From positions 1-39,525 of IMG/VR virus record IMGVR_UViG_3300042294_004878: DNA of 39,525 nucleotides. One strand, given 5' to 3'. The notes below the pieces were generated by a model. The model made no database searches, had not been told where the DNA came from, and saw only the letters and a list, made by a program, of their open reading frames with translations. Below are positions 1-32,809 of this stretch, piece by piece. The translations under genes and the position numbers were made by a program. Every line of letters begins with the position of its first letter. The first letter of the stretch is position 1. This stretch comes from a virus.

Positions 1-280
1 TAGTATACTCTAAATATTCTAAAACAATGTTTGTAACACCTAATCCAACACGTTTATCCTTTAATTCAGGATACATTTCATATAGTTCTTCGTTAATTCC
101 AATTTTTAATATTTGAATTGGAATTTGGACAGAACCATCATAATCAGCTACTGCTTCAATGCTTTGTTTTTTTTCAAACTCAGCTTGGTATTGTTCGGTT
201 TTAACCGAACCAACTTGAGCTTGGGCTGTCTTACAAGAAAACAGCCCTAGCATCAATAATATAGGTAAAAATCTTACCAT
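1..280 (-). CDS. Outer-membrane-type lipoprotein, CsgG-like (3' end outside window)
   Basis: Reading from the ATG at 280 gives 93 codons with no stop before the window edge, so the C-terminus is missing. The N-terminus (MVRFLPILLMLGLFSC) is a lipoprotein signal peptide with an LFSC lipobox; lipidation is expected at Cys16. The residues after the Cys (KTAQAQ) lack the acidic patch of Bacteroidota surface-export signals, so a periplasm-facing outer-membrane lipoprotein is more likely. Near the visible end, a stretch reading DKRVGLGVTNIVLEYLE resembles the start of the CsgG/curli-secretion channel fold (VG.GVTN.V...L), a family known in marine T4-like phages. That assignment is tentative because most of the protein is unseen. 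The ATG overlaps the stop of the preceding membrane-protein gene by 7 bases (ATGGTAA), so the two are probably translationally coupled. A spanin-like outer lipoprotein is an alternative. Confidence 0.55.
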   Translation of the reverse strand, partial: MVRFLPILLMLGLFSCKTAQAQVGSVKTEQYQAEFEKKQSIEAVADYDGSVQIPIQILKIGINEELYEMYPELKDKRVGLGVTNIVLEYLEYT

Positions 281-585
281 GATTCTTCTTGTGGTTTAGC
301 AACAGGAGCAGCGGGTTGAGTTGGTTTTTCAACTACACGCTCACGGATAACTGTAGGTCCTCCGTTTTCAACCTTTTGTTTATTGTCTTGAGTTTGTTGT
401 ACGTTTACAACTACAGGAGCAGGAGCTGCTGCTTCTGTTTTTGTTTCTTCTTTAGGTTCTTCTTCGTGACCTCCAAATAAAGTAACTCCTAACCAGGTGC
501 CTCCACCTGCTACAACTGTACTTAATGTTCCTACAATGGTCTTTCTAAGGCCTGACCAAGTGCCATCATTTGTTTCTTCTGACAT
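274..585 (-). CDS. Small single-pass membrane protein, Pro/Ala/Glu-rich tail
   Basis: A 103-residue protein of unknown function. After a short polar N-terminus, residues about 17-39 form one glycine-rich hydrophobic segment, long enough to cross a membrane. An acidic stretch (HEEEPKEE) follows, then a Pro/Ala/Val-rich, Gln-rich tail typical of an extended periplasmic linker. There is no lipobox or cleavable signal. It starts 3 bases after the stop of the T9SS-tailed protein and overlaps the following lipoprotein by 7 bases, so the three genes look like one translational unit. An inner-membrane protein followed by an overlapping lipoprotein resembles an Rz/Rz1 spanin pair, but the lipoprotein looks too long and CsgG-like. 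A holin role is also possible. None of these can be decided from sequence. Confidence 0.7.
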   Translation of the reverse strand: MSEETNDGTWSGLRKTIVGTLSTVVAGGGTWLGVTLFGGHEEEPKEETKTEAAAPAPVVVNVQQTQDNKQKVENGGPTVIRERVVEKPTQPAAPVAKPQEESW

Positions 586-588
586 AGC

Positions 589-2493
589 TTATTGTTTAAT
601 TAATTTATTATAAATAGGTGCTTCTGTGTCTAAAGATAAATTTACTATATAAACTCCAGGAGCTAATTTGCCTAGATCTTTTGAATATGAATATTGCCCT
701 TCAGGTAATTGACCATCTAAAATGGCAACTACTTTTCTACCTTGAATATCATAAATTCCTAAATGAGCATCTGTTGTTGTAGTTACGTTGAATGTAATTG
801 TAACATCTTCTGTAGCTGGGTTAGGGAAAATTAAAATTGAATTTGGGTTGATTACATCACCTACTGTAGATTTTAATACTTGTAAAATACCATTTGTTGG
901 TGTGATTTCAAGGTCTTTTGAGGATGCATTACCTGCAAATTTACGCGTTGTCCAAAGCGGACTTTCAAGCCATTCGTCCTGTGGTTGTTTAGCTAAAAAT
1001 TGCAAAGTAATCACTTCATCTTCGTTTGATAGTAAGTTTTCGTTAACTGAAGGATCATATCCACCCCAATTAATTTCTCCGTTTAAAACGTTAACATATG
1101 TTAACCATTTCATAGCGTTTGAAGTAGAATAGATACTTTTGAATTCCAATACATCTGTATCGTATTGTAAACCAAATTGTAAAGAATTCAATTCAGTACC
1201 ACCAGTTAACACTTTTACAGGAATGTTTACCAAGTTGCCTGCTTCAACAGACAATCTTGGTACATTCACTTCAATTTGAGAAGTTGGGAAATCATATTCT
1301 ACTGTATGATCAATTACGTGGTAGATTTGAGATTCAACACCTGGTGTAGGATCGATCAATAATTCAATTGGTGTCATACGAGCCATATGGTATCCTGTTT
1401 CGTTAGCATCTCCAGGAGCCAATACATAGAAAGTTACTGTTGAAGGTTGACCTGCTATGATTTCGTAGTTGAAATTGGTTACACCTGGGATTGAAGCCAT
1501 CAAGTTTGTAGATGAACCATCAATTGTAGAGAATTCAGTTGCGGTAAAGAATTTAACATCTTTAACGTTGTTTGGCCATTGTGTAAAGTTACCTGCTACA
1601 CGTCCAAATACACCGTAAGCATCTGTAATTGTAATGTTACCTGAACCGTTTACATCAGCATGGTAAAAATCAAATCCTGTCATAGTACCATTTCCAAGTA
1701 CCCATTGGTTAATTAATTGGGCATCTGTTGCTGAAATGATATTTCCAGTTGCCATTGTATCACCTTGGATGGCTAAACGAACATCCCAATAAGTTGTATC
1801 TAAGTTAACTGTAAATGTAAAGTTACCTGAGTTGTCTGTTGTATAAGCTGAATGTTGTGTCCAAGTAGAACCACCTGCAGGGCGTGTTTGGAGGGCTAAT
1901 GGTAAGTCTTTAGCTCCAGTACCTGTTACGTTTGTAAATGTACCAGCAAATGTAAATGTAGGTAAAGTAAATACACCACCATAACTGTGTAAGTTTAAAG
2001 TAGTATCTAAACCAGCATTAGTTGATGCATAAGGTGAAAATGTTTGAGTACCTGTCCAAGTTAATGGAGTAATTGATACTAAGTTGTTGAATACAGCAGG
2101 AGCAGCGTGTGTAAATGTAATTGCAAATCTTTCTCCACCAGCTAATGTGTATGTTGGAGAACCACCTGTGTATGTAAGAGTAATAGTAATGTAACCGTTA
2201 GCTGCATTAGTTATATACTGCATATCAAGGTTTGTTGTAGAACCAATCAATGCAACCGTTGCATTTGTAAATGCAATTTTGTCATAAAACACACGAAACT
2301 GAGTTGCTGTGAACTTCGTTAATGTGGTGTTTTGTAAGGTGATTTTTGCTAGTGTAGTACCTTGAGCAGTTGGTCCTACTTGATACTGGTCGGCAATTAA
2401 CCCGTAGATACCATTTCCTGGTGCTACTGGTACTTGTCCAAATAAATTAAATGTTACTAATGTAAGTAACAAAGGCAATAATAGGTTTTTCAT
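589..2493 (-). CDS. Secreted protein with T9SS type A C-terminal sorting domain, cohesin/dockerin-like segments
   Basis: A 634-residue secreted protein. The start chosen is the ATG at 2493, because it begins directly with a signal peptide (MKNLLLPLLLTLVTFNLFGQ, cleavage likely after Gln20); an ATG 33 bases upstream would put charged residues before it. Residues 30-175 look like a beta sandwich. Residues 244-300 hold a paired F-hand, dockerin-like segment, the second half reading ADVNGSGNITITDA with calcium-ligand spacing. Residues about 412-540 resemble a cohesin-type sandwich (VEAGNLVNIPVKV, then LQFGLQYDTDVLEF). Residues 552-634 match the Por-secretion tail: SILIFPNPATEDVTI, IYDIQGRKV, LAPGVYIV and a basic end. 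In Bacteroidota this tail directs proteins through the T9SS for anchoring or release at the cell surface. It follows the RNR genes after a 64-base gap with no clear hairpin. Its target or enzymatic role is unknown. Confidence 0.85.
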   Translation of the reverse strand: MKNLLLPLLLTLVTFNLFGQVPVAPGNGIYGLIADQYQVGPTAQGTTLAKITLQNTTLTKFTATQFRVFYDKIAFTNATVALIGSTTNLDMQYITNAANGYITITLTYTGGSPTYTLAGGERFAITFTHAAPAVFNNLVSITPLTWTGTQTFSPYASTNAGLDTTLNLHSYGGVFTLPTFTFAGTFTNVTGTGAKDLPLALQTRPAGGSTWTQHSAYTTDNSGNFTFTVNLDTTYWDVRLAIQGDTMATGNIISATDAQLINQWVLGNGTMTGFDFYHADVNGSGNITITDAYGVFGRVAGNFTQWPNNVKDVKFFTATEFSTIDGSSTNLMASIPGVTNFNYEIIAGQPSTVTFYVLAPGDANETGYHMARMTPIELLIDPTPGVESQIYHVIDHTVEYDFPTSQIEVNVPRLSVEAGNLVNIPVKVLTGGTELNSLQFGLQYDTDVLEFKSIYSTSNAMKWLTYVNVLNGEINWGGYDPSVNENLLSNEDEVITLQFLAKQPQDEWLESPLWTTRKFAGNASSKDLEITPTNGILQVLKSTVGDVINPNSILIFPNPATEDVTITFNVTTTTDAHLGIYDIQGRKVVAILDGQLPEGQYSYSKDLGKLAPGVYIVNLSLDTEAPIYNKLIKQ

Positions 2494-2557: not shown

Positions 2558-4285
2558 CTATCCTTCGCAACTAATACAATCAGCAGTACGTTGAAGATTA
2601 TCTCCTCTTAAAATACTTTCTGAACGCATGTAGTATAACGTTTTGATGCCTTCTCTCCAAGCTAATTTGTGTACCTCACTAATGTATTTAGGTGAGTCAG
2701 ATGGATCAAATGTTAAGTTAAGTGAAATTGCTTGATCAATATGTTTTTGACGAATACCATTTTGACGAATAACTTCATATGGATTAATTTCTTTGAATGT
2801 CAAGAATATTTCTTTTTCTTCATCCGATAAAATATGATCAGGTAATCCCATTACTGAACCTTTATCTTTAGCAATTTGTTCCCAAATACTATCGATGTTA
2901 AATCCTTTAGATTCAAGTAAACGCTCCAATGTTGGATTTTTCTTGATAAATGTACCTTTAGATGTTTTCAAGTTAAATACATTTGCAGGGATTGGTTCAA
3001 TTGAAGGTGAAACACCACCTGAAATATTAGCATTTGATACTGTTGGTGCAATTGCTAAATGGTGTGTATGTCTCAAGCCTGTTCCTTTACACCATTCTGG
3101 TTCTCCATATTCTTTTGCTTGATCACGAGATGCTTTTAAGGCTCCTTCCTCAATAAATTGAGACATGATTCGAGTGTAAGAATTTGCTTGTAAACCTGCA
3201 AACGGAATGCCTTTTTCTTGTAGGAATGTATGCCATCCTAAAACACCAATACCAATTGCTCTACCTTTAATAGCTGAACGATAAGTGTTTTCCATGAATT
3301 TAACATTCTTTGCTCTATCAATAAATTCTTGTAGTACACCTTCTAAGAACCAACATGATAACTCAGGTAAAGTCATACCATTTTCGAATTTATAGTCTTT
3401 CCATTCGTCCCAACGTGCTAAATTCAATGAAGATAAACAGCAAATAAATGAGTGTAATGGGTCTGTATAAAGTGCAATTTCAGAACAAATATTTGTCATT
3501 GAAACGTGCAAGTTATTGTTTTTGTATGCTTGAGGGTTGTTGTTGTTTACATTATCTTCAAACATGATGTAAGGTTCACCTGTTTCCAAACGTGTTTTAA
3601 GGATTTCTCCCCACAAACGCAAAGCACGTGGTTCTTTATCCTCTAGTTTATTCATGAAATCATCATCAATAACTACACATTGGTGCAAGTTCAAACATTG
3701 GCGATTAACATCTCCTTTTGGACGACGAATCATCAAAAATTCTTCAATATCTGGATGGTTAATGTGTAGGTTTACAGATGCTGCACCTCGTCTAACTGAA
3801 CCTTGGTTTGTTGCTAGGATAGTTGAATCATAGATCTTAGCCCATGGAACTACACCCTCAGATACTCCATTACCTGCAATTTCTTTACCTCTACCTCTAA
3901 TACGAGCTAAACCGATACCAACACCTCCACCTTGAGATGATAAACGCATCAACTCAGAGTTTGCTAATGCAATTCCTTCAATTGAATCGTCTGTATCGAT
4001 TCCAAAACATGAAATTGGCATACCACGTTCAGTACCTAAATTTGATAAAACCGGAGATGCAAGACACAACCAATTTTTTTCCATTGCTTCAAAGAAGAAC
4101 GGTACTAAATCTTTACGTTTTAGTCTACGCCCCGCTGCTTTACTTACTCGATTAAATGCTTTAAATACATTTTCTTCTGGGAGTAAGTATCCTTGTGAGA
4201 TGATAGAAGTACCAATCTCATCCATCCATTCAGGGTAGTCTTTACCCTTCACCCATTTACTTGTGTCTACGTTTAATTTGCTCAT
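2558..4285 (-). CDS. nrdA: Ribonucleoside-diphosphate reductase class I, alpha subunit, no ATP-cone
   Basis: The catalytic large subunit of class I ribonucleotide reductase, which makes deoxyribonucleotides for phage DNA synthesis. Active-site residues are visible: Cys93 in PISCFG and Cys282 or Cys283 in FICCLSSLNL (the redox pair), the NICSEI motif (Asn265, Cys267 thiyl radical site, Glu269), Tyr551-Tyr552 in TLYYMRSES (radical transfer), and a C-terminal Cys570-x-x-Cys573 that exchanges disulfides with thioredoxin or glutaredoxin. At 575 residues it is much shorter than E. coli NrdA (761). The first active-site Cys lies about 130 residues earlier, so the N-terminal ATP-cone that senses dATP is absent. 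It follows nrdB after 9 bases and should be co-translated with it. Confidence 0.96.
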   Translation of the reverse strand: MSKLNVDTSKWVKGKDYPEWMDEIGTSIISQGYLLPEENVFKAFNRVSKAAGRRLKRKDLVPFFFEAMEKNWLCLASPVLSNLGTERGMPISCFGIDTDDSIEGIALANSELMRLSSQGGGVGIGLARIRGRGKEIAGNGVSEGVVPWAKIYDSTILATNQGSVRRGAASVNLHINHPDIEEFLMIRRPKGDVNRQCLNLHQCVVIDDDFMNKLEDKEPRALRLWGEILKTRLETGEPYIMFEDNVNNNNPQAYKNNNLHVSMTNICSEIALYTDPLHSFICCLSSLNLARWDEWKDYKFENGMTLPELSCWFLEGVLQEFIDRAKNVKFMENTYRSAIKGRAIGIGVLGWHTFLQEKGIPFAGLQANSYTRIMSQFIEEGALKASRDQAKEYGEPEWCKGTGLRHTHHLAIAPTVSNANISGGVSPSIEPIPANVFNLKTSKGTFIKKNPTLERLLESKGFNIDSIWEQIAKDKGSVMGLPDHILSDEEKEIFLTFKEINPYEVIRQNGIRQKHIDQAISLNLTFDPSDSPKYISEVHKLAWREGIKTLYYMRSESILRGDNLQRTADCISCEG

Positions 4286-14241: not shown

Positions 14242-15453
14242 TTATTTTGTATTTTTTGCTTGGTAAGATCTTTCATTTCTTGCTTCAGTTTCTTCTTTTG
14301 CGTCTTGAATCTCTTCTTTAGAATTATATGTAATAACAAATTCAACATTTATATTTTCTGCATTTATTACATTTGAATTTCCTTCTTCTGCTTCAGGGAC
14401 AAGAAAACTACCGGGGGTTGAAGGGGGGCTTCCATCAGCTGGGGTGATAGTGATAAGATTTCCTCTATATGCATCATTATTTAAATATTTCCAAACATAA
14501 AGCATGGAAGATATTGTATTTGCAGATTTATTTTCTTCTAAAACATCTGGAGTTGGTGGTAATTCATCTGGATTTTCTGTATTTTGGGTTGGTTCTGTTG
14601 CACTTGTTACTTTAATAAATTCTAAAGTACCTTTATCAACTGATAGATTGGTTTTTAATGATTCAATTATATCTCCTAAACTAATAATAGTTAATTCAAT
14701 ATCATAAGAACCATCAACATTAAAAGACCAATTAAAATTAGATACTTTACCAAGTATTCCATCATAATTTGCAGACCATTCTGCTCGTTTGTCTTCTATT
14801 TTAGGAAGAATATCTAAATACGATCCATTGCTTTCTTTTATATTAAAGAACATATCTTCAATTAATGTACTACGAAGAACAGTTTTTTGACCATATTTAT
14901 TGTCTATAAATAAACTATTTCCCCATTCAAGCAATACGGTATAACCTAAACGCATATACAACAAATCAAGAATTTCAAATTGTTGTCTGTTATTTGCTTT
15001 AAGTTTTACTGTGGCTTTTTTAAGGGAACCTCTATTTAAAGTTTTAATATCAGCACTTTCAATACCCGGCATTGGTGAAAAACCATATGACCCATAAGTA
15101 TAAGAACTGTTAAACTCACGTGGAAGAAAACCATCACGTTGTTTTAGTTTATCAAAGGGTCTTCCATTAACATCTACTAAGGATGCAGCTCCACCAAATA
15201 AAATGTTTCTTTTGGCTAAACCTAATCCTTTATTATCTTCAACTTCAGTTTGAGTAAAACCAATATCTGTTAATCTTTTACCATCTGTAACAGAAATTCC
15301 TGAGGCTAATTTTATCCAAGAGGTGTTTGAATTTAAAACATTCAATTGGTTATCACTTCTAAATTCTGTATTTACTCCACTGCCGTGAAGTGTTTGTCTT
15401 CGATTAATTTGATTTATCGTGTAAGAAGGTAATATTTCTCCTACTATAGCCAT
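14242..15453 (-). CDS. Baseplate structural protein, probable hub component
   Basis: A 403-residue structural protein. Its centre (SPMPGIESADIKTLNRGSLK, then a long amphipathic run ending LLYMRLGYTVLLEWGNSLF) is the pattern I associate with N-terminal halves of phage hub/gp27-like proteins; this is a family impression, not a motif proof. A beta-rich segment follows around GKVSNFNWSFNVDGSYDIEL. The C-terminus (about 280-403) is polar, with Pro/Glu/Asn-rich linkers. It lies 4 bases after the LysM/gp53-like gene and 10 before the hub-lysozyme gene, so together these two genes may supply what one gp27-gp5 pair supplies in T4. Confidence 0.65.
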   Translation of the reverse strand: MAIVGEILPSYTINQINRRQTLHGSGVNTEFRSDNQLNVLNSNTSWIKLASGISVTDGKRLTDIGFTQTEVEDNKGLGLAKRNILFGGAASLVDVNGRPFDKLKQRDGFLPREFNSSYTYGSYGFSPMPGIESADIKTLNRGSLKKATVKLKANNRQQFEILDLLYMRLGYTVLLEWGNSLFIDNKYGQKTVLRSTLIEDMFFNIKESNGSYLDILPKIEDKRAEWSANYDGILGKVSNFNWSFNVDGSYDIELTIISLGDIIESLKTNLSVDKGTLEFIKVTSATEPTQNTENPDELPPTPDVLEENKSANTISSMLYVWKYLNNDAYRGNLITITPADGSPPSTPGSFLVPEAEEGNSNVINAENINVEFVITYNSKEEIQDAKEETEARNERSYQAKNTK

Positions 15454-15457
15454 AACT

Positions 15458-15787
15458 TTATATTATTTGATTCAAATTATTAAACTGCGTTAATATTGTT
15501 TGTAGTCTAAGTGGTGAAGGGATTCTGATTTGAGCTCCAATAGCAGGGTAAATTGAGCCTGAATCTTGGTTGGAATTAGCACGATTAATAATCCACCAAA
15601 GATCAGGATCTCTATAATAGTTTAAAGCTAAAACATCATACCTATCACCTTGTGTAGTATACACATAAATGTCTTGGGGATCAAGGGGGATTGTAGGATA
15701 TTTTACATTTATATATCTTCTTTTTTTATCCTGATCAGATATTTCATTTGTAGGTTTTACTACAGGTATTTGAGTATATCTAGGCAT
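15458..15787 (-). CDS. LysM-type baseplate wedge protein, gp53-like
   Basis: A 109-residue protein with one LysM-like module: YVYTTQGDRYDVLALNYYRD followed by DLWWIINRANS, closing with the Pro-rich IGAQIRIPSPL. This is the arrangement of T4 gp53 and of LysM adaptor proteins in contractile tails, which link wedge, hub and tube. It is short enough to be essentially that domain alone, with a basic N-terminal extension. It sits 4 bases after the 846-residue structural gene, inside the tightly packed baseplate run. Confidence 0.8.
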   Translation of the reverse strand: MPRYTQIPVVKPTNEISDQDKKRRYINVKYPTIPLDPQDIYVYTTQGDRYDVLALNYYRDPDLWWIINRANSNQDSGSIYPAIGAQIRIPSPLRLQTILTQFNNLNQII

Positions 15788-15791
15788 ATTG

Positions 15792-18332
15792 TTATGGTTG
15801 TATTGTATTACTCATGAAACCTGATCCTCCTCCAAGACCAGTAATTGCTCCTGATTGGTCTCCTAAAGTAACAGATGGATCTACAGGTGCGCTAACAATT
15901 TGATTTGTTTGGATTTGATTTTGAAGGGCAATTCGAGCTTCTTCAAGTCCTGCATCTGTATTTCTACCATTAAAATTATTATTAGGGTCAATATAACGTT
16001 GATTACCTGGGTCGGCTAATACTGTGCTTAAAGCTTTACCTTCTCCTGCTGGGGTGAAGTCATTCTTCCAGGTTTGTTTGGATGGTCTAAATTTATGGAT
16101 TGGAGTAAAATTAAGTGAGACTTTAATCATATGAGGTAATTGTCTAACACCACCTATTACATTTCCATTTTGATCTAAAGAGGCATCTCTATTTATTTCC
16201 CAAGGGGATTCTTCAGGAATATCATACGTTAATGAAGTAATAATTCCTGGTTGGTCATTTATGTAGTCTCCTAGAGTAATATATGCAATGTTTCCTGCCA
16301 TATAGCCTGATGTTAAACTATCAAGATACTCAGGAGCAAGTGAGGAGGCAAGGAAATTTAACTTGTCATACATTATATTTAATTCATCTTTAGATAAAGC
16401 TACAACAGTAAACCCCATTTGAATCTTTCTATCAAAACCACCATATTTATAAAATTTTTCTCCACGACCCATATAACTTATAGCATTCCATTCAGCATCA
16501 TATGAATCTGAAAAGGTGTCAATAAATGCTCTAAAATGCATGTATTTTCTATAGGAAAGCCCTGTTATTCCATTTACAGGTTTATTCTGATCATCATTAT
16601 TTAATATACCAATAGAAAATTCAACTATATCATTTAATTCATCAATTCCTGGTTTACCATATCTGGATCCATCTTTAAATTCAGATTTGTAAATAGGGTA
16701 GGCATTAATCGAATCTAATGGTTTAGATATAACTTGACCTTCAGCTATACTACCTTCTAATGGAAAAGAACGATTTCTTTTATTACTTCCTGCTGAAAAT
16801 CCTGATTTTCCTGTAAGGTTAAATCGTTGATCAAAGTCACCAGATTTTGGGGTTTCAGGATTAAATGTATATCCTGAGGTTGAGGTGAGGAAGGAATTTG
16901 AAGATGGGGAAGTTGGGGTGGATTTTCTAAAGTCTTCTTTAGTTTGGGCATCAGTATTTAAAGGTTGAGCTGTAAATTGAGATTGATCCCAAGTACTAAA
17001 ATAAGAATTGTATACAGGTTGAAAAAGCCAAGGTTGGATATTGTCTTTTCCATCATATGTTGCAAAGTATGTAGAAGTACCAAAATATTGTTCTTCAGTT
17101 ATTGAAGGATTTTTCTTTGACTGGTATTGCCTATATACACTAGATTTGAGTTGTTTTCCATCAAATAATGTGTCTAAACCATATTGTAATAAATTTCCAG
17201 GGGAATGATTACGATATGTACCTTCGTAAGGATCAATCATAACATATCCCGTTCTTAATGGGGTTTGACCATCATTAGAAGTTGCAAATTTAATTTTAGT
17301 TCTTGAAAAACCTAATGCACTTCCAGGCCCTCCACCATAAGATAATAATACAGAACCATTACTTGCTTTTTCATTATCTGGGTTAAGTCCAAATTTATCC
17401 CATAATTTAAGGAGACGGTTTGAAAATGTACCTCCAATAATTGAAGTTAGATCTTCTTGTAAAGTTTCTAATTCACTTTCTAAATTATTTACTCTTTTTT
17501 TAAGACGTTCTTCTTTTATTTGATCCCATTTAACATCGGATTCATATTGTTTTTGTTCTTTTTCATTAAGTTGATTATTAAGTTGATCAACTTTATCATT
17601 ACCTAAAAAACTAAAGTTTAATGGTGTAGGGACAACCGGATTATATGCGTTTTGTTTACTTGATAATATTTGGGTTTGTTGGAGTTCTTCGGATTTTTTA
17701 AGAATATTTTGATTAATCTTATCAACTTTTCTTTGAACCGATTTAGGAGTAGATGATTCAATAGTTTGATTTTGATTTCTTTTATAAACAGCTGTTTGAT
17801 AATCTCTAATAGCTAACCCAGGAACTAATCCAGTTGGATCAATACCTTGTTTATTTAAAGTAGTACCAGCAAAACCCACTAAAGCTTGAGCTAAAGTTGA
17901 TGTGGGTAAATATACTCCTTCATTTAAAGCTCCACCTAAATATGCTGGGGTTGGTTGGTTAGCTTCTGTTTTGACTCCAACACGAGAAAGAATATTTTGT
18001 TTAGCAGCAAATAAAATACCACTAGGGTTACTAATATCTGAAAAATATTTTGTTAATCTAACAACATCTTCAGCTGCTGAAGTTGCAGATAAAATACCCC
18101 CACGAATAATAAAATCATTATAAAATGCAGGGTTTTTAAAATCTTCTTTAATTGGATTTTTTACATATGGTTGCTTGCTTGATCCACCACCAGGTCTATC
18201 ATTTCCAAAAGGAATACTTTTCTGGCCAAAAGAAGTAACAGTAGAAACACTTCCTACTTGCCCTTCGGCATTTCCTGAATAGAATTTAAAATCTTCAGGA
18301 TCGGTTAATAATTTAACAAGAAAAGAACCCAT
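15792..18332 (-). CDS. Large baseplate/tail structural protein with central coiled coil
   Basis: An 846-residue protein, not assigned to a named T4 gene. Residues 65-200 are helical and Ala/Leu-rich (GGILSATSAAEDVVRLTKYF). Residues about 245-298 form a strongly charged coiled coil (NQLNEKEQKQYESD, RVNNLESELETLQEDL). The middle is Ser/Asn/Gly-rich and probably extended. Residues about 560-770 are compact and include GYMAGNIAYITLGDYINDQP and SLTYDIPEESPWEI, then a strand HMIKVSLNFTPIHKF; this segment resembles tube-proximal baseplate or cap proteins of contractile tails. The last 80 residues are low complexity. Position between tape measure and gp53-like genes supports a baseplate role such as gp48/gp54, by inference. 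Confidence 0.65.
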   Translation of the reverse strand: MGSFLVKLLTDPEDFKFYSGNAEGQVGSVSTVTSFGQKSIPFGNDRPGGGSSKQPYVKNPIKEDFKNPAFYNDFIIRGGILSATSAAEDVVRLTKYFSDISNPSGILFAAKQNILSRVGVKTEANQPTPAYLGGALNEGVYLPTSTLAQALVGFAGTTLNKQGIDPTGLVPGLAIRDYQTAVYKRNQNQTIESSTPKSVQRKVDKINQNILKKSEELQQTQILSSKQNAYNPVVPTPLNFSFLGNDKVDQLNNQLNEKEQKQYESDVKWDQIKEERLKKRVNNLESELETLQEDLTSIIGGTFSNRLLKLWDKFGLNPDNEKASNGSVLLSYGGGPGSALGFSRTKIKFATSNDGQTPLRTGYVMIDPYEGTYRNHSPGNLLQYGLDTLFDGKQLKSSVYRQYQSKKNPSITEEQYFGTSTYFATYDGKDNIQPWLFQPVYNSYFSTWDQSQFTAQPLNTDAQTKEDFRKSTPTSPSSNSFLTSTSGYTFNPETPKSGDFDQRFNLTGKSGFSAGSNKRNRSFPLEGSIAEGQVISKPLDSINAYPIYKSEFKDGSRYGKPGIDELNDIVEFSIGILNNDDQNKPVNGITGLSYRKYMHFRAFIDTFSDSYDAEWNAISYMGRGEKFYKYGGFDRKIQMGFTVVALSKDELNIMYDKLNFLASSLAPEYLDSLTSGYMAGNIAYITLGDYINDQPGIITSLTYDIPEESPWEINRDASLDQNGNVIGGVRQLPHMIKVSLNFTPIHKFRPSKQTWKNDFTPAGEGKALSTVLADPGNQRYIDPNNNFNGRNTDAGLEEARIALQNQIQTNQIVSAPVDPSVTLGDQSGAITGLGGGSGFMSNTIQP

Positions 18333-23355: not shown

Positions 23356-25086
23356 TTATCCTGGGAATTCAGCTCCTGTAGGCATTAAAATGAAATCTAA
23401 CGAGATAAATTCAGCTGTACGTGTTGGTTGAATATAAATTTGACCTACTAATTGGTTTTGATCAATTACTGCTGGGCCGTTGTTTGTATCATCCATAACA
23501 ACTTTATAAGCGTATAATCCTTGTTTTTGTTGGATTCCTTCTAAGAATGGAGTTACTCTTGCGATAAATGAATTTCTAGTTGCAATTGTATTTTGTTCAA
23601 ACACTACTGTATCTGCAATTTGGCGAATATATGATTTCAATTCAATCATTAAACGACGTACGTTTACACGATCAAGAGCAGATTGTGATTTTTGTAATGT
23701 TTTCTGACCATATACTACAACACCTTGTTGAGGTAGTGTGGCGATAGGGTTAATATTATTGCTATACAACGTGTCACGATTACCTTGTGTCAATTTATAT
23801 TGAGCTTGAAGAACTGTGTTTAATCCACCGCGGTTTATACCTGCTGGAGCAAACCATGGAGCAGATACTCTATCGTTAAATGCATATACACCTGGGATTA
23901 CAGTTGAAGCTGGTACCCAAACATGTTTTCCTGTTGCTGGGTCAATGATACGAACCCAAGGCCAATATGCTGCGGCATATGAAGTATCACGGGTTTGAGC
24001 TTGTGTTACAACACCTTGTAGATTAGTATCAAATGTTGCTAAATCTACCACATACATACTATCACCTCTAGCAATTGTATTATTAATGATGTTAGTAACT
24101 TGTGCTGTATGAGTACCATTTAATAATCCTGGGGTAAATAAAAGATTAAATTGATATGCTTCAGGATTACCTAAAAGTGCAATCATATTATTATAATCAT
24201 TACCTACTAACCCTTGTGTATTAGATGAGTTTATAGTATCATAGAAATTAATAGCTGAAGAAGATAATATTGTTCCTGTAGCACCTGCAAAACATCCATC
24301 AAGTGAACCACTTCCAATAGCCGGAATAGAACCACTATATAGTGGGGAAGCAACAGCACCGTTAGCATTTAAGTAATTAGGTGTAGTATAATTTACTTCT
24401 TTTACACGAACATATTTGGACATATTTGGATAACTTCCAGATACTTCCATTTGATTTGTTTGTGAATTGTATTGTAGTTTTTGATCTCCAATTACAGCGG
24501 CAACATAACGAGTTGAATTTGGATCTAAATTTACATTGTTCCAAGATTCTAAAATAACTTTATTATTTACGTTATCATTTCCACGTCTGATTAGTACATT
24601 AAATGTACCTGATCCTGTATTTGGATTTGTAATTTCCCAACGAATATTATTAACTGATCCAGAAATAAGAGTACTGTTGGTAGTTGAACCTGAATTGTTC
24701 ATAATAACACCTTCAGAAATAGTTTCTAGTACAAATGGTGATAAACCAGATGTAGGTCCAGCAGAACCTGTTGGAATAAGACTACTTGTTGCTGAAGTGT
24801 ATGAACCAGATGTCACACGAGCAACTATTAATGAAGTTCCTCCATAATTAAAGTAATTGTAAGCAGCAATAGAAGTTAAGTAAGAATAAGAATTACCACC
24901 ACTAACAAATGTATCACCAAACATCATTACGAAATCTGAATAAGTGGTTACAAGTGTTGGTTTTTCAACAGGACCTTTAACTGTTGGGCCTATAATAGCA
25001 GCACCTGCTTGAACTGGTTGTCCAGTTAAGAATGTGTTGTCTATTTCGCTAATTGCTACTCCAGGAGAAGTTGTGAAATTTGCCAT
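23356..25086 (-). CDS. Tail sheath protein, gp18-like (second of two paralogues in transcription order)
   Basis: A 576-residue contractile sheath subunit. The N-terminus (FTTSPGVAISEIDN, then QPVQAGAAIIGPTVKG) and the C-terminal domain (LDRVNVRRLMIELKSYIRQI, FEQNTIATRNSFIARV, YIQPTRTAEFISLDF) are hallmarks of gp18-type sheaths. The middle (about 150-330) is a variable, Ser/Asn/Gly-rich surface domain. It shares long blocks with the 580-residue protein encoded just before it, so the two are tandem duplicates. T4 gp18 is 659 residues. It has its own late motif 12 bases upstream, and the tube gene follows. Confidence 0.93.
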   Translation of the reverse strand: MANFTTSPGVAISEIDNTFLTGQPVQAGAAIIGPTVKGPVEKPTLVTTYSDFVMMFGDTFVSGGNSYSYLTSIAAYNYFNYGGTSLIVARVTSGSYTSATSSLIPTGSAGPTSGLSPFVLETISEGVIMNNSGSTTNSTLISGSVNNIRWEITNPNTGSGTFNVLIRRGNDNVNNKVILESWNNVNLDPNSTRYVAAVIGDQKLQYNSQTNQMEVSGSYPNMSKYVRVKEVNYTTPNYLNANGAVASPLYSGSIPAIGSGSLDGCFAGATGTILSSSAINFYDTINSSNTQGLVGNDYNNMIALLGNPEAYQFNLLFTPGLLNGTHTAQVTNIINNTIARGDSMYVVDLATFDTNLQGVVTQAQTRDTSYAAAYWPWVRIIDPATGKHVWVPASTVIPGVYAFNDRVSAPWFAPAGINRGGLNTVLQAQYKLTQGNRDTLYSNNINPIATLPQQGVVVYGQKTLQKSQSALDRVNVRRLMIELKSYIRQIADTVVFEQNTIATRNSFIARVTPFLEGIQQKQGLYAYKVVMDDTNNGPAVIDQNQLVGQIYIQPTRTAEFISLDFILMPTGAEFPG

Positions 25087-25132: not shown

Positions 25133-26875
25133 TTAAGCAGGAAATGTTGCACCAGTAGGTAATATATTGAAATCAAGTACGATATATTCAACTGTTCTAG
25201 TAGGTTGTAGATAAATTTGACCTACCATTTGATTATTATCTACAACTGAAGGTGGGTTATTAGATTCATCCATTATAACTCTAAAAGCATTTAAACCTTG
25301 TTGTTGTTGAACAGATGCTAAATATGGGTTGATAATGGATAAGAAGTTATTTCTTGTAACAGCATTATTTTGTTCAAATACAAACGTATCAGCTACTTGA
25401 GAGATATAGTTTTTAAGTTCGATCAATAAACGACGTACATTAACGCGATCTAAAGAACTTGATTTTTTCTGTAATGTTTTTTGTCCAAATACTACTACAC
25501 CATTTGTTGGGAAAGTAGCAATTGGGTTTACATTTGATTGATATAATGTATCTCTATTACCTTGAGTTAATATACGTTCTACTTGAGTAGCAACAGGAAT
25601 TAATCCTCTATTAATACCAGCAGGTGCAAACCAAGGAGCAGCAACATTATCGTTAAATGCATATACTCCAGGAATCATAGTAGAAGCAGGTACCCAAACT
25701 TGATTTGCTGTGTTTGGGTCTATTGTTTTAACCCAAGGCCAATAAGTTGCAGCATATGAAGTATCATATCCTGAGGTATTTGTAAGTACTGAATTTATTG
25801 GGGTGTTGTATTTTGAGGAATCAAATACTACCATCATGTCACTTCTATTTTGAGCAACTGTGATCATAGAAGTAATTGCTCCAGGAGCTCCACCTGCTAT
25901 ATCAGACATTAATCCAGGAGCAATTAGTAAGTTATAGTTAAATGCATCCTTATTAGCTAATAATGAAATTGATTCAGTATAAGCATTTGCTGAAAGACCC
26001 TGAATGTTATCTCCTGAGGTTATACTTTCATAATATTTGTTAGCTCCACCGTAAAATAATTTACCAGTAGCGGCACCAAAAGAACCACTTGCATTAATTG
26101 GAATTGAACCAGTATATTGTGGTTTTGGATTTCCAACATTATCAAAATAATTTGGTGTTGGTTGGTTTACAGTTTTTACATAAACATAAGATGAATTATT
26201 TGCATAACTTCCTGAAGTTTGGATATAATATTCTCCATTATCGGATGCTACATTTTCAACTTGATTACCAATTATTTTTTCAATGTAATTTGGTGAATAT
26301 GGGTCAAGTGATAGTGGACCCCATGTTTCTACAATTGAAGGGAATACTGTACTATCATTTCCTTGACGAAGTAATAATGTAAATGTACCTGAGCTAGTAT
26401 TAGCGTTGGTAATTTGCCATCTAAAATTTTCTGAAGATCCACTTAATAATGTGCCTACTGCTCCAGAAGGGCCAGTACTGTTCATAATTTCACCTTTTGA
26501 AATAGTAGCCAATTCAAATGGGCTAGTATTATAAGGAGCACCAGCACCGTGTGCAGAAGCAGAAATAAATGATGAAGTAGCAGATGTAAATGATCCTGTT
26601 ACAACACGTGTAACTAAAAGAGATGGACCTCCATTATTGAAATAGTTATACGCTGCAATTGAAGTAAAATAAGTATAGGTGTTACTTCCACTTAGGAAAG
26701 TAGCACCAAACTTATTTAAATAATCACTGTATGAAGTTACTAGGGTAGGAATACCTACTTTACCTTTAACGGTTGGTCCAATGATAGCAGCACCTGCTTG
26801 TACAGGTTGTTGAGTGATAAATGATTGATCGTTCTCTATTGCTAATACACCAGGTGAGACAATTGTTTCTGCCAT
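25133..26875 (-). CDS. Tail sheath protein, gp18-like (first of two paralogues in transcription order)
   Basis: A 580-residue sheath paralogue. It keeps the same N-terminal (VSPGVLAIENDQSF, QPVQAGAAIIGPTVKG) and C-terminal (LDRVNVRRLLIELKNYISQV, YLQPTRTVEYIVLDF) blocks as its neighbour. Differences concentrate in the exposed central domain (about 90-330), where linkers and insertions differ. Both copies are intact, with no frameshift, so both are probably made. They may form a mixed sheath or serve different assembly states; sequence cannot say which. A late motif lies 18 bases upstream. Confidence 0.93.
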   Translation of the reverse strand: MAETIVSPGVLAIENDQSFITQQPVQAGAAIIGPTVKGKVGIPTLVTSYSDYLNKFGATFLSGSNTYTYFTSIAAYNYFNNGGPSLLVTRVVTGSFTSATSSFISASAHGAGAPYNTSPFELATISKGEIMNSTGPSGAVGTLLSGSSENFRWQITNANTSSGTFTLLLRQGNDSTVFPSIVETWGPLSLDPYSPNYIEKIIGNQVENVASDNGEYYIQTSGSYANNSSYVYVKTVNQPTPNYFDNVGNPKPQYTGSIPINASGSFGAATGKLFYGGANKYYESITSGDNIQGLSANAYTESISLLANKDAFNYNLLIAPGLMSDIAGGAPGAITSMITVAQNRSDMMVVFDSSKYNTPINSVLTNTSGYDTSYAATYWPWVKTIDPNTANQVWVPASTMIPGVYAFNDNVAAPWFAPAGINRGLIPVATQVERILTQGNRDTLYQSNVNPIATFPTNGVVVFGQKTLQKKSSSLDRVNVRRLLIELKNYISQVADTFVFEQNNAVTRNNFLSIINPYLASVQQQQGLNAFRVIMDESNNPPSVVDNNQMVGQIYLQPTRTVEYIVLDFNILPTGATFPA

Positions 26876-27649: not shown

Positions 27650-28213
27650 TTAAAAGTTTTGTACTGGAAGATAATATTTTTGGGAATTAAAATAAGTATT
27701 TTGAGGTGGATTAACTTCATATTCGATATAAGTTACATCAGTTAAATCAAATACATTTTGTTGAGCCGGTAAATTATTCCACCATGTAAATTTTGCTCCT
27801 GGTTTGATTAATTGGGGAACATATTGAATAAATTCTTGATAATGGATATCACCATAAGTATCAAAAAATATTCCATCATATGTTGATAATATATCTACAC
27901 AATCATACCAATCCGAAAATATTAAATTTACATTAGGTTTATCTGTGGCCCATTCTTGTGCACGAGCAAATATTTCAGGATGTATTTCTATAATAGTATG
28001 TGATGCAGGATTGAGTTGTTGGATATATGTTGATGAAATACCCATTCCAAAACCAACTTCTAATATATCACCTTGATTGTGACACACAATTTCTGCATGG
28101 GCTTGCATTAATGGTGCTTCCCAATCCATCATTACTTGTTCTACGTCAAACACTGCAATGCTTGATGAAAATGCAATTTGATGTGGCTCGAATACAAGTG
28201 TGGTGTTTTTCAT
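27650..28213 (-). CDS. SAM-dependent methyltransferase, guanidinoacetate/arginine methyltransferase-like
   Basis: A 187-residue class I methyltransferase. Motif I is ILEVGFGMG (50-58), the ribose-binding acid is Glu76 (IIEIHPE), and the post-II segment includes FSDWYD (99-104). VMMDWEAPLM (27-36) and YDGIFFDTYGD (112-122) align with the guanidine-binding segments of guanidinoacetate N-methyltransferase and fungal Rmt2 (VMERWETPYM and FDGILYDTY), where Glu and Asp hold the guanidino group. This suggests a guanidino or arginine substrate rather than DNA. The ATG shares one base with the TAA of the 228-residue fibre-module gene (TAATG), so the two are coupled. Substrates could be an arginine of a virion protein or a small metabolite. 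It is unusual among fibre genes. Confidence 0.8.
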   Translation of the reverse strand: MKNTTLVFEPHQIAFSSSIAVFDVEQVMMDWEAPLMQAHAEIVCHNQGDILEVGFGMGISSTYIQQLNPASHTIIEIHPEIFARAQEWATDKPNVNLIFSDWYDCVDILSTYDGIFFDTYGDIHYQEFIQYVPQLIKPGAKFTWWNNLPAQQNVFDLTDVTYIEYEVNPPQNTYFNSQKYYLPVQNF

Positions 28214-28900: not shown

Positions 28901-31900
28901 TTATAACTCTATCCAAGTATTATCTGGTTGGAATCTAATGATAGCTGTATTTTGAGGGCTTGTTGCACTCCATACATTATGTCCAACTAATCGTACTATG
29001 TCTCCAGAAACTGCAGGTGCAACTTCAGTAACCTTACCTGCATTTGTACTTACATATAGTGGTGCACCAGGTGAAGCAGGAATAGAAATTTGATCATGAT
29101 TACTTTTTAATGCAATAATACCATCAATTAATACATCAACAGTCTCACCAATGCCTGATGTGGAATTTAATGCAATACCTAATAATGTAACTGATTTTGC
29201 GGCTACATCCGCATCTGCAATACCCCATTCTCCATCGGTAGTTAAAAATAATAATGTACCAACAGTAGAAATTGCCTCAGCACATAAACCATCTGAAATG
29301 ACTGTACCGTTGAAATAATTTGCTTGAGAAGATAACCATCCAGAAGTAGAATTTGATTTTATTCGCAACATGCTAGTTGTTGAGACTGCTCCGGAGTTTA
29401 TTTTATATGTCCCTACACCACCCACTCCAACTCGGGTATATGCTAATTCAGGTGCAAATTCGTAGCGATAATTACCGCTACTATCTTGTCCTGTAATACT
29501 ACCTTTAACGTTAGTAGAACCATTTACATCTAATGGAAAAGCAGGGCTGGTTGTGCCAATACCTACATTACCTGTAGATGCTTGTATACGCATTCTTTCA
29601 GTGCTACCTCCTGAAAAGAATCTTAAATGGTGTGTGCCTGTACCATCATACCCAATATACATTCCATCATTTAATGCACTTGAGTTTGAGTTGCGCATAA
29701 CTCTAAAATTAACATATACATCTGTATTGTCAATCATTCCATAATTTCTCATGAAATCTGTAGAGTTTAAGCTATCTAATGTATCAGCATTTCCTGCACT
29801 TGAAGCATAGCTAACACTTTGGTTAGCAATGTTACCTGAGTGAACAATTGATCTCCATGGGTTCAATGTACCCGTATCACCGTTTCGAGTTCTTAAGAAG
29901 AAACTATTACCATCTCCATATGAACCGTTGAGCCACATATCATATGATCCACCGGTACTAAATCTGGCAATAGGACCTGTTGTAGGAGCGTTTACAGCAT
30001 AAGTAAATCCTGTAGAGTTTGTTGCCATTGTATCGGCATTCAATGTAAACCCTTGATAATACATAAGATTATCAAAGTTTGCTCTTGGTGCATTAGATGA
30101 ATCCCATACAGTTGCATCAGTTCCACCTCCATAACTATTTTTACCAACATAAAGAGTACCGTTATTCCAACGAAATTGCCAACCATAAGCATTATTATGG
30201 AATCCTGTTGTATTAGAACCGGGGTCTATCATTAATGATACATTACCATTATTAGCCTCAAACTCAATACCACCCCAACCGTTTCTACTACCTACTATTT
30301 TCCAAGCACCATATGTTGCATCATTAGGGTAAATATGAGCATTGTTAGGTGATGCATACAAGCCATGATTTCCTGGGAGGAAAATCCAAGAATTAATAGA
30401 AGCATAGTTACTACTTCCTTGTGAAATAGTAAATCCATTAGCTAATCTATATGATGCTGCAGAAGCACCACCATTGATTTCTAATTTATATCCTGGGTTA
30501 GTAGTACCAATACCTACGTTACCACCACCGGTAATGGTCATTTTTGTAGATTGTGCAGCACCTGTTGCTCCATTATCAAAATATAGAGCACCTCCATCTT
30601 CTAACCTAAATACACCTACACCATTACTTGCATTATTTCTTTGAAGTGCAATAAATGGTTCTGCATTTGAAGTTGTTCTTAAGATTATACCATCTGAAGT
30701 AGATGCGTTAATTTGAAGTTTTGAAGATGGGTTAATAGTGCCAATACCTACATTTCCAGATGAAAGAAAATACGCTGTTGGAGCATTCCATCCGCCTATT
30801 GAAACGCCATTATATCCCTCAATATTAATCATACCAACAGATACGCCGCCTGACCAACTTCTTCCGAAAGAATGAATTACACCTGTCCAATCACTACCTT
30901 GATAGAATCTAATAGCATTGTATGATGTAGATGTTAATTGCATTTCAATACCACTTTGAGATTGACCAAAAGTGTAGAGTCCAGGTATATATAAACCCTG
31001 TGTGCTTGTTACACCACTTACATCAAGTTTATATCCAGGGCTAGTAGTGCCAATACCTACGTTACCATCATTAGTCATTACTAACTTAGTAGATAAGTTT
31101 GATGCACCACCAGCAGTCGTACCAGTACCTGTAGAAATATCTAATCTACCATCATTGAAATTTATTATGGCAGATTTATATGAACTGTATTTATTAACCC
31201 AACCTGAAGATTGGCTATATATGGTATTAAAAGCTATATAAGAATCATTAGCATCTCTAAATAATACTCCAAATGAACCAGCATTAAATGAATTATATGA
31301 TGAATTTGTTGCAGTATATGAACCGGCTCCTAATTGTAATATACTAGATGGACTAGTAGTACCAATACCTACATTACCACTACCATCAATAAGTAATCTA
31401 TACTCACTATCAGTTCTATTATAAACAAACCATTGATTTGAATTATTTGCCTGAACTTCCCATCGATCACCGCTGGCAGGTTTAAATTCAATACCTGCAG
31501 AATTGGCTGATGATCTTACTCTAAGTTGGGTGTAACTAGCATTAAGAATATCTAATCCAGTTCCACCGGAATCTAAAGATGGGCTAGTAGTACCAATACC
31601 TACGAGACCATTATTTCTTATAAAAAATCCAGTTCCTGCATTGGTATATGTAGCAAAAGAATAGTTTGTTCCTGAATTTGCTGATGTGTCTATATATACA
31701 CCATATGGGGATGTACCTGTATTTGTAAATGTAGCTATCCATTCATCGTTGGCTGCTCCTGTAACTACAAGTTTTCTTCCCGGGCTAGTTGTGCCAATAC
31801 CTACAGCACCCGCAAAATATGCGTTACCATTACCTCTAATTGAAGCAAATGAAGAACCTGCAGAATTAACTACATTTAATGCTATTTGACTTTCAACTGC

Positions 31901-32809
31901 AGACGTAGGCTCAATTGTAACCCAACCTATACTCGATTGATTTGTATTTACTAATACTTCTGCACCTTGTGTTCTTATAGCACCAACAACATGAAGTTTT
32001 TGTGTTGGGTTAGTAGTGCCAATACCTACGTTGCCTGCCGACGTGATGCGCATCTTTTGTGTTGCAGCAGTCCAAAAGTCCATGTTACCTGTGCCAGTAT
32101 AGATGTTTAATCCTCCGTCTCCGGCCCAGCTGGTGGTATTTTGGTTTCCTAACCAAATATAAGCATCTCTTGATCCTGCTATAAATTCTAACTGGGTGAT
32201 TTGGTCAGCAGAAGTACTAGAGTTTCTAAAAGTAGCCATTAAATTACTACCTTGTACATGAAATTTATGTGCTGGGTTAGTAGTACCAATACCTATGTTA
32301 CCTGATGTATCAATATATAATCTAGAATTTCCGTTGGTTTGTAAGCTTAAAGGAGTTGCATTGCTTGAACCTACAATCCCAACGTTTGAAGAAAGACCAG
32401 TATATAAATGATATGTACTAGAATTTTCAATAAATAACAATTGGTTACCTGAGCCATATATATGAAGTTTTTGACTAGGACTAGAAGTACCAACCCCAAC
32501 ATTACTTCCAGTTACAACCAATACATTTTGACCATATTGGCCCATTACTACAGTATTGTCTGCAAATGCTTCAATTACAGGTAAACCTGCAATAGTGTTA
32601 ACTGAAAATAATGAATTTGATAAATCATCAGATACAGAAAATAACGTACCGTTATTTCCATTAACGGTAAATAAATCGGTTCTACCAGTTGAACCCGAAC
32701 CCTGCAACGTGAGTGAACCAGATGCATCTTGGGCTAAAGTTTGTGTATAATTCAATGAGCTTGTAAAGCTCATCAAACTGGAACCGGGGGTGATTATAAT
32801 ATCTGCCAT
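28901..32809 (-). CDS. Long tail fibre with GIGTT(S/N)P repeats
   Basis: A 1302-residue fibre. After an N-terminal segment with FTVNGNNGTLFSVSDD, typical of phage fibres, about ten units follow, each with NVGIGTT(N/S)P then a short K(L/F)xV(x)G strand, separated by 60-110 residues of variable beta-rich sequence. A later section holds a NADTLDSLNSTDF motif after PWRSIVHSGNIA, common in phage fibre shafts. The C-terminus (about 1165-1302) changes to a compact domain with LLFLTTDGEWGIADADVAAK and APLYVSTNAGKVTEV, reminiscent of DUF2190-like trimeric barrels, in place of an S74 peptidase chaperone. It probably makes receptor contacts. Confidence 0.87.
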   Translation of the reverse strand: MADIIITPGSSLMSFTSSLNYTQTLAQDASGSLTLQGSGSTGRTDLFTVNGNNGTLFSVSDDLSNSLFSVNTIAGLPVIEAFADNTVVMGQYGQNVLVVTGSNVGVGTSSPSQKLHIYGSGNQLLFIENSSTYHLYTGLSSNVGIVGSSNATPLSLQTNGNSRLYIDTSGNIGIGTTNPAHKFHVQGSNLMATFRNSSTSADQITQLEFIAGSRDAYIWLGNQNTTSWAGDGGLNIYTGTGNMDFWTAATQKMRITSAGNVGIGTTNPTQKLHVVGAIRTQGAEVLVNTNQSSIGWVTIEPTSAVESQIALNVVNSAGSSFASIRGNGNAYFAGAVGIGTTSPGRKLVVTGAANDEWIATFTNTGTSPYGVYIDTSANSGTNYSFATYTNAGTGFFIRNNGLVGIGTTSPSLDSGGTGLDILNASYTQLRVRSSANSAGIEFKPASGDRWEVQANNSNQWFVYNRTDSEYRLLIDGSGNVGIGTTSPSSILQLGAGSYTATNSSYNSFNAGSFGVLFRDANDSYIAFNTIYSQSSGWVNKYSSYKSAIINFNDGRLDISTGTGTTAGGASNLSTKLVMTNDGNVGIGTTSPGYKLDVSGVTSTQGLYIPGLYTFGQSQSGIEMQLTSTSYNAIRFYQGSDWTGVIHSFGRSWSGGVSVGMINIEGYNGVSIGGWNAPTAYFLSSGNVGIGTINPSSKLQINASTSDGIILRTTSNAEPFIALQRNNASNGVGVFRLEDGGALYFDNGATGAAQSTKMTITGGGNVGIGTTNPGYKLEINGGASAASYRLANGFTISQGSSNYASINSWIFLPGNHGLYASPNNAHIYPNDATYGAWKIVGSRNGWGGIEFEANNGNVSLMIDPGSNTTGFHNNAYGWQFRWNNGTLYVGKNSYGGGTDATVWDSSNAPRANFDNLMYYQGFTLNADTMATNSTGFTYAVNAPTTGPIARFSTGGSYDMWLNGSYGDGNSFFLRTRNGDTGTLNPWRSIVHSGNIANQSVSYASSAGNADTLDSLNSTDFMRNYGMIDNTDVYVNFRVMRNSNSSALNDGMYIGYDGTGTHHLRFFSGGSTERMRIQASTGNVGIGTTSPAFPLDVNGSTNVKGSITGQDSSGNYRYEFAPELAYTRVGVGGVGTYKINSGAVSTTSMLRIKSNSTSGWLSSQANYFNGTVISDGLCAEAISTVGTLLFLTTDGEWGIADADVAAKSVTLLGIALNSTSGIGETVDVLIDGIIALKSNHDQISIPASPGAPLYVSTNAGKVTEVAPAVSGDIVRLVGHNVWSATSPQNTAIIRFQPDNTWIEL
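29540..32500 (-). repeat. Tandem-spaced GIGTT repeats in the 1302-residue fibre
   Basis: About ten copies of a short coding repeat (plus strand core ccaatacctac) spaced roughly 200-960 bases apart. The 15-mer agtgccaatacctac occurs unchanged at 30737, 31046 and 32015, and also in the other fibre gene. It encodes VGIGTT, but conservation extends to wobble positions. Confidence 0.85.

Follow-up and report, generated by a model that had tools for sequence, protein, structure and literature searches.

Phage-encoded cargo of the type IX secretion system (T9SS) has been reported before. Use of the host system, possibly for superinfection exclusion, was proposed for T9SS type A cargo encoded by Cryophage (Bellas et al. 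2020, PMC7468147); this cargo comprises endoglucanase, GH39 and PA14 proteins in a variable region, and the accessible part of the report describes no cohesin/dockerin cassette. T9SS sorting domains were also noted in crAss-like phages (2019, PMC6949934), where they are tied to BACON domains, with cohesin and dockerin not mentioned in the accessible part of that source. These two reports contradict the view of the initial annotation that a phage protein of this type lacked precedent. The protein described here, P0001, has in common with Cryophage a phage-borne T9SS type A sorting domain, and with crAss-like phages the presence of such domains in Bacteroidota phages. While phage T9SS cargo is already known, no earlier account of a cohesin/dockerin T9SS cassette was found in the literature outside subscription papers and preprints.

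The same cassette is present in Flavobacterium phage vB_FspM_immuto (MW353175), where it spans gp13-gp19, likewise with replication genes nearby, and where its products are annotated merely as cohesin, lectin C-type or hypothetical. The immuto counterpart of P0001, at about 31% identity, is a pair of proteins: gp14, a separate dockerin-type protein, and gp15, which consists of a cohesin and a T9SS tail. In immuto-type phages, separate dockerin-type proteins precede the cohesin-tail protein. That gp14 and gp15 are separate in immuto and fused in P0001 suggests that they interact. Immuto is a cultured phage of Flavobacterium sp. LMO8. The genus Flavobacterium possesses T9SS.

Like cellulosome scaffolds, P0001 has a cohesin module and a dockerin-type calcium loop; unlike them, it has no carbohydrate-active enzyme, bears a T9SS tail for export and has a dockerin match below the cut-off. 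Cellulosome membership was rejected, as the partner proteins carry lectin-like domains and no enzyme domain is listed for them.

The analysed stretch (the window) is the 39,525-nt IMG/VR record IMGVR_UViG_3300042294_004878. Its relevant features are as follows.

2-280, minus strand: LIPO gene, truncated at the contig end so that only the first 93 of the 240 aa of an exported protein are encoded
274-585, minus strand: TM gene, encoding 103 aa with a single predicted membrane helix and a P/A/E/Q-rich C-terminal stretch
592-2493, minus strand: P0001 gene, 634 aa
592-831, minus strand: T9SS type A sorting domain (TIGR04183/PF18962), P0001 residues 555-634
892-1275, minus strand: cohesin domain, P0001 residues 407-534
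1309-1953, minus strand: TTR/CarboxypepD-like plus dockerin-like module, P0001 residues about 181-395
P0001 residues about 22-180: N-terminal beta-sandwich
P0001 residues 1-20: predicted signal peptide, MKNLLLPLLLTLVTFNLFGQ, from our own hydrophobicity test
2558-4285, minus strand: nrdA, a phage gene for the large subunit of ribonucleotide reductase, directly upstream of P0001

The span 589-2493 initially given for the P0001 gene is right, with the ATG at 2493 and the stop codon at 589-591, and the gene lies on the minus strand. The record is a tailed-phage fragment with tail sheath, tail tube, baseplate hub and ribonucleotide reductase genes, as well as gp32-like, UvsX-like and DnaB-like genes. 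nrdA also adjoins a P0001 relative in four other contigs (L002, L010, L023 and L025); this adjacency indicates that P0001 is embedded in a phage genome. The independent contig L002 is 98.5% identical to the first 11.4 kb of the window and continues beyond its left end. Two similar genes stand in tandem on the minus strand (23356-25086 and 25133-26875); tail sheath families are matched by the first, of which the second is an apparent paralogue. A small methyltransferase-like gene (27650-28213, minus strand) was recognised by eye among the tail genes, and two long fibre-like proteins (28901-32809 and 36557-39505, minus strand) contain many NVGIGTTSP-type repeats.

The T9SS tail, initially placed at residues 552-634, was recovered by both curated models. 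TIGR04183 covered all 72 of its positions on residues 555-634 with 41.7 bits (E 8e-11, cut-off 23), and PF18962 scored 44.5 bits (cut-off 27), so P0001 stands above the curated sorting-domain cut-off for T9SS type A cargo. The HMM comparison proposed as a check was thereby run, and the absence of a significant hit, which was to count against the claim, did not occur. In a six-frame search of the whole record, the P0001 tail was the single sorting-domain match. Both models also matched 52 of the 52 P0001-family representatives, and the family profile found the sorting-domain chains 8glk (E 1.8e-4) and 8glj (E 1.7e-3) in the PDB. Judged from these sequence comparisons, the tail is no chance match. 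The described elements FPNP (556-559), YDIQGRKV (581-588) and LAPGVYIV (610-617) are present; the supposed basic end consists only of LIKQ. Purifying selection acts on the tail (dN/dS about 0.24), somewhat less strongly than on the rest of the protein (0.10-0.20). No match was obtained for P0001 with PHROGs profiles. A tblastn search of the phage collection with the tail alone returned nothing, a result that gives no measure of tail prevalence in cultured phages. A 294-aa lysozyme-type protein of a related phage contig (L152:1009-1893, minus strand, record G003) also carries a T9SS-like tail (29.9 bits) and has no signal peptide; the tail fold may be reused there without export, so a T9SS-like tail on a phage protein is not in every case a sign of export.

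The signal peptide reported initially is likewise predicted here, as a hydrophobic N-terminus followed by Q, by our own heuristic and not by SignalP. A glutamine that immediately follows the signal peptide is known in Bacteroidetes as the Q-rule (PMC5837995). It was found in 75 of 76 proteins of the P0001 family, 77/79 lectin-type partners, 77/78 OMP, 39/40 SprT-like, 68/74 LIPO and 48/59 QCVY proteins, and in none of the non-exported controls (endolysin, YkuD-like, thyA, nrdA). The exported members of the cassette thus mostly obey the Q-rule, which shows that they are adapted to host export. Since the tail is conserved and selected, a signal peptide is predicted and the co-encoded proteins follow the export rule, export of P0001 by the host T9SS, as proposed in the initial annotation, is the best-supported reading and a likely one.

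That annotation had overlooked a cohesin domain and a sub-threshold dockerin match in the same protein. PF00963 (Cohesin) matched residues 407-534 above its gathering score (33.3 bits, cut-off 24.1) and was found in 47 of 52 family representatives; the family profile also matched the cohesin entries 6kg8 and 6kgc in the PDB. Dockerin_1 (PF00404) on residues 253-292 reached 21.8 bits, just under its cut-off of 22.9, and the family profile found the dockerin 4uyp (E 9e-4). The TTR/dockerin-like module is common to P0001 and the co-encoded lectin-type proteins (hhalign 99.9%, E 1.5e-34). The first of its two expected calcium loops is degenerate and the second, DVNGSGNITITD, is canonical. Of the 62 distinct fused forms, 55 have a dockerin-type calcium loop, as do 53 of 84 partner proteins, versus 1 of 730 shuffled sequences. 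Profile comparison gave no alignment between the N-terminal sandwich and the C-terminal cohesin of P0001. Two AlphaFold models built from shallow alignments were both poor (mean pLDDT 44.6), and fold searches served as support only; the search with the low-confidence P0001 model returned cohesins at the top, with the aligned part of the protein not indicated.

Scans of viral contigs with P0001, LIPO and immuto gp15 gave about 100 loci, a few contigs contributing more than one. With the tail profile, 77 distinct proteins were recovered: 62 fused forms of about 635 aa and 15 short forms of 243 aa that comprise the cohesin and T9SS tail. The cassette is ordered as P0001-type gene, TM, LIPO, OMP (a long exported protein), QCVY (an exported protein of ~150 aa) and dockerin-type protein, frequently followed by an exported SprT-like protein; the P0001-type gene is followed by TM-LIPO-OMP in 79 of 83 testable loci. 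Lectin_C was found in 45, LamG in 18 and GEVED in 5 of the 66 dockerin-type partner proteins. The C-terminal domain of OMP appears barrel-like by eye, without Pfam or PDB support. In L002, an exported protein with an HESLH motif (15192-15644, plus strand), SprT-like below threshold, is a possible secreted metalloprotease of the cassette.

LIPO, whose complete gene lies at L002:11475-12197, showed features of the CsgG superfamily by eye ahead of any search. The top matches of its low-confidence model were CsgG (4uv2), FlgT (3w1e) and an LPHT-ring entry, with PelC lower. An hhalign comparison with CsgG-like proteins was weak and collinear (37%, E 4e-4), shuffled columns scoring far lower. PF03783 (CsgG) matched neither LIPO nor the phage records, even at E 10, and CsgG family membership was not assigned; PHROGs gave LIPO only marginal, scattered matches. 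A CsgG/FlgT/PelC-like fold is suggested by the low-confidence model, and, given the PF03783 result and the weak fold and profile matches, a channel role for LIPO is only a proposal. QCVY is related to LIPO (95%) and is the shorter of the two.

From the observed domains, conservation, gene order and signal-peptide pattern, we infer secretion of P0001, cohesin-dockerin pairing and a role at the cell surface. P0001 would cross the inner membrane of the infected Bacteroidota cell by Sec, its signal peptide being cut at a host-type A/G|Q site. The C-terminal tail would then direct passage of the outer membrane through the host T9SS, after which the protein may be anchored or released at the surface. 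There its cohesin would bind co-encoded C-type-lectin, LamG or GEVED proteins through their dockerin-like modules, an assembly that is plausible on the domain evidence and still tentative. The outcome would be a phage-made carbohydrate-binding coat on the infected cell that may change receptor access, giving superinfection exclusion or reducing the loss of progeny to debris. Overall, P0001 probably acts as the scaffold of a surface cassette carried by the phage and is exported by T9SS, with changed receptor access as the likeliest use. The fuller version, in which a phage-specific assembly of T9SS-borne cohesin scaffold and dockerin-linked lectins coats the cell with the help of its own CsgG-like outer-membrane export factor, is rather doubtful.

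Several observations count against the scaffold reading. None of the 66 dockerin-type partner proteins has a T9SS tail, which leaves the exit of the lectins from the periplasm unaccounted for. The Dockerin_1 score just below cut-off and the degenerate first loop also weigh against it, as do the L152 tail on a protein with no signal peptide and the poor structure models. If the scaffold reading is true, a virus systematically redecorates its host via a phylum-specific secretion machine, and T9SS and the Q-rule would enter phage-host biology. Many Bacteroidota phages share the conserved cassette, in some cases on contigs longer than 200 kb, and with immuto phages of Flavobacterium in culture, the surface-cassette question is directly testable.

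Surface remodelling or exclusion is the likeliest role, and its main rival is a module for outer-membrane disruption and release, in which TM and LIPO would act like a spanin pair or pore while P0001 and the lectins loosen the envelope at lysis. The surroundings of the cassette fit such a module: in the interval from 6 genes upstream to 8 downstream, 60 of 104 loci have a GH19-type endolysin gene and 74 of 104 a holin-like gene, the LIPO and TM genes overlap by 7 bases, and the pore would agree with the top fold matches of LIPO. However, other cassette copies adjoin nrdA or thyA, neither a coiled coil nor a classic spanin feature was recognised, immuto LIPO has no lipobox cysteine, and cohesin, dockerin and lectin domains are not known to act in lysis. 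We therefore regard this explanation as unlikely. Near the endolysin gene of L002, a conserved 196-aa protein (16530-17120, plus strand) has an L,D-transpeptidase-like SEGC motif by eye.

Lectin-like domains occur in phage fibres, and the lectin-like and Ig-like domains of the cassette could instead decorate the virion and bind polysaccharide, the T9SS-like tail being merely a beta-sandwich, as the L152 lysozyme with its tail and no signal peptide would allow. Host-type signal peptides on P0001, the lectins and other exported members do not fit cytoplasmic assembly, and in the window the cassette and the tail genes lie at separate places, making this quite improbable. More doubtful still is an auxiliary metabolic function, by which P0001 would aid binding or degradation of extracellular polysaccharide by the infected cell. 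Cohesin/dockerin and lectin-like modules would suit it, and other phage T9SS cargo includes an endoglucanase and a GH39 (PMC7468147), but an enzymatic domain was found neither in P0001 nor in the scanned partner proteins. For the same reason, the breakdown of surface polymers listed among the possible roles in the initial annotation is unsupported.

A host gene or assembly chimera, conceivable from the position of the P0001 gene near the contig end, is contradicted by the same arrangement in L002, by the occurrence of the family in numerous phage contigs as well as in a cultured phage, and by the 395 Bacteroidota genomes searched, in which a full match to the P0001 N-terminal part was confined to one phage-like contig of 254 kb and only the dockerin region gave weak matches. 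Pattern scans, which reach close relatives only, found a LIPO relative in 1 of 84,980 genomes and no P0001 relatives in genome contigs. The LIPO relative lies on a 254-kb contig in a MAG, with the same cassette and phage-like genes, and this contig appears to be a phage. A 284-aa phage protein with a signal peptide and a T9SS tail, unrelated to P0001, was also observed (L153:683-1537, G008:C291); its contig is phage-like, 254 kb long and binned in a Bacteroidetes MAG.
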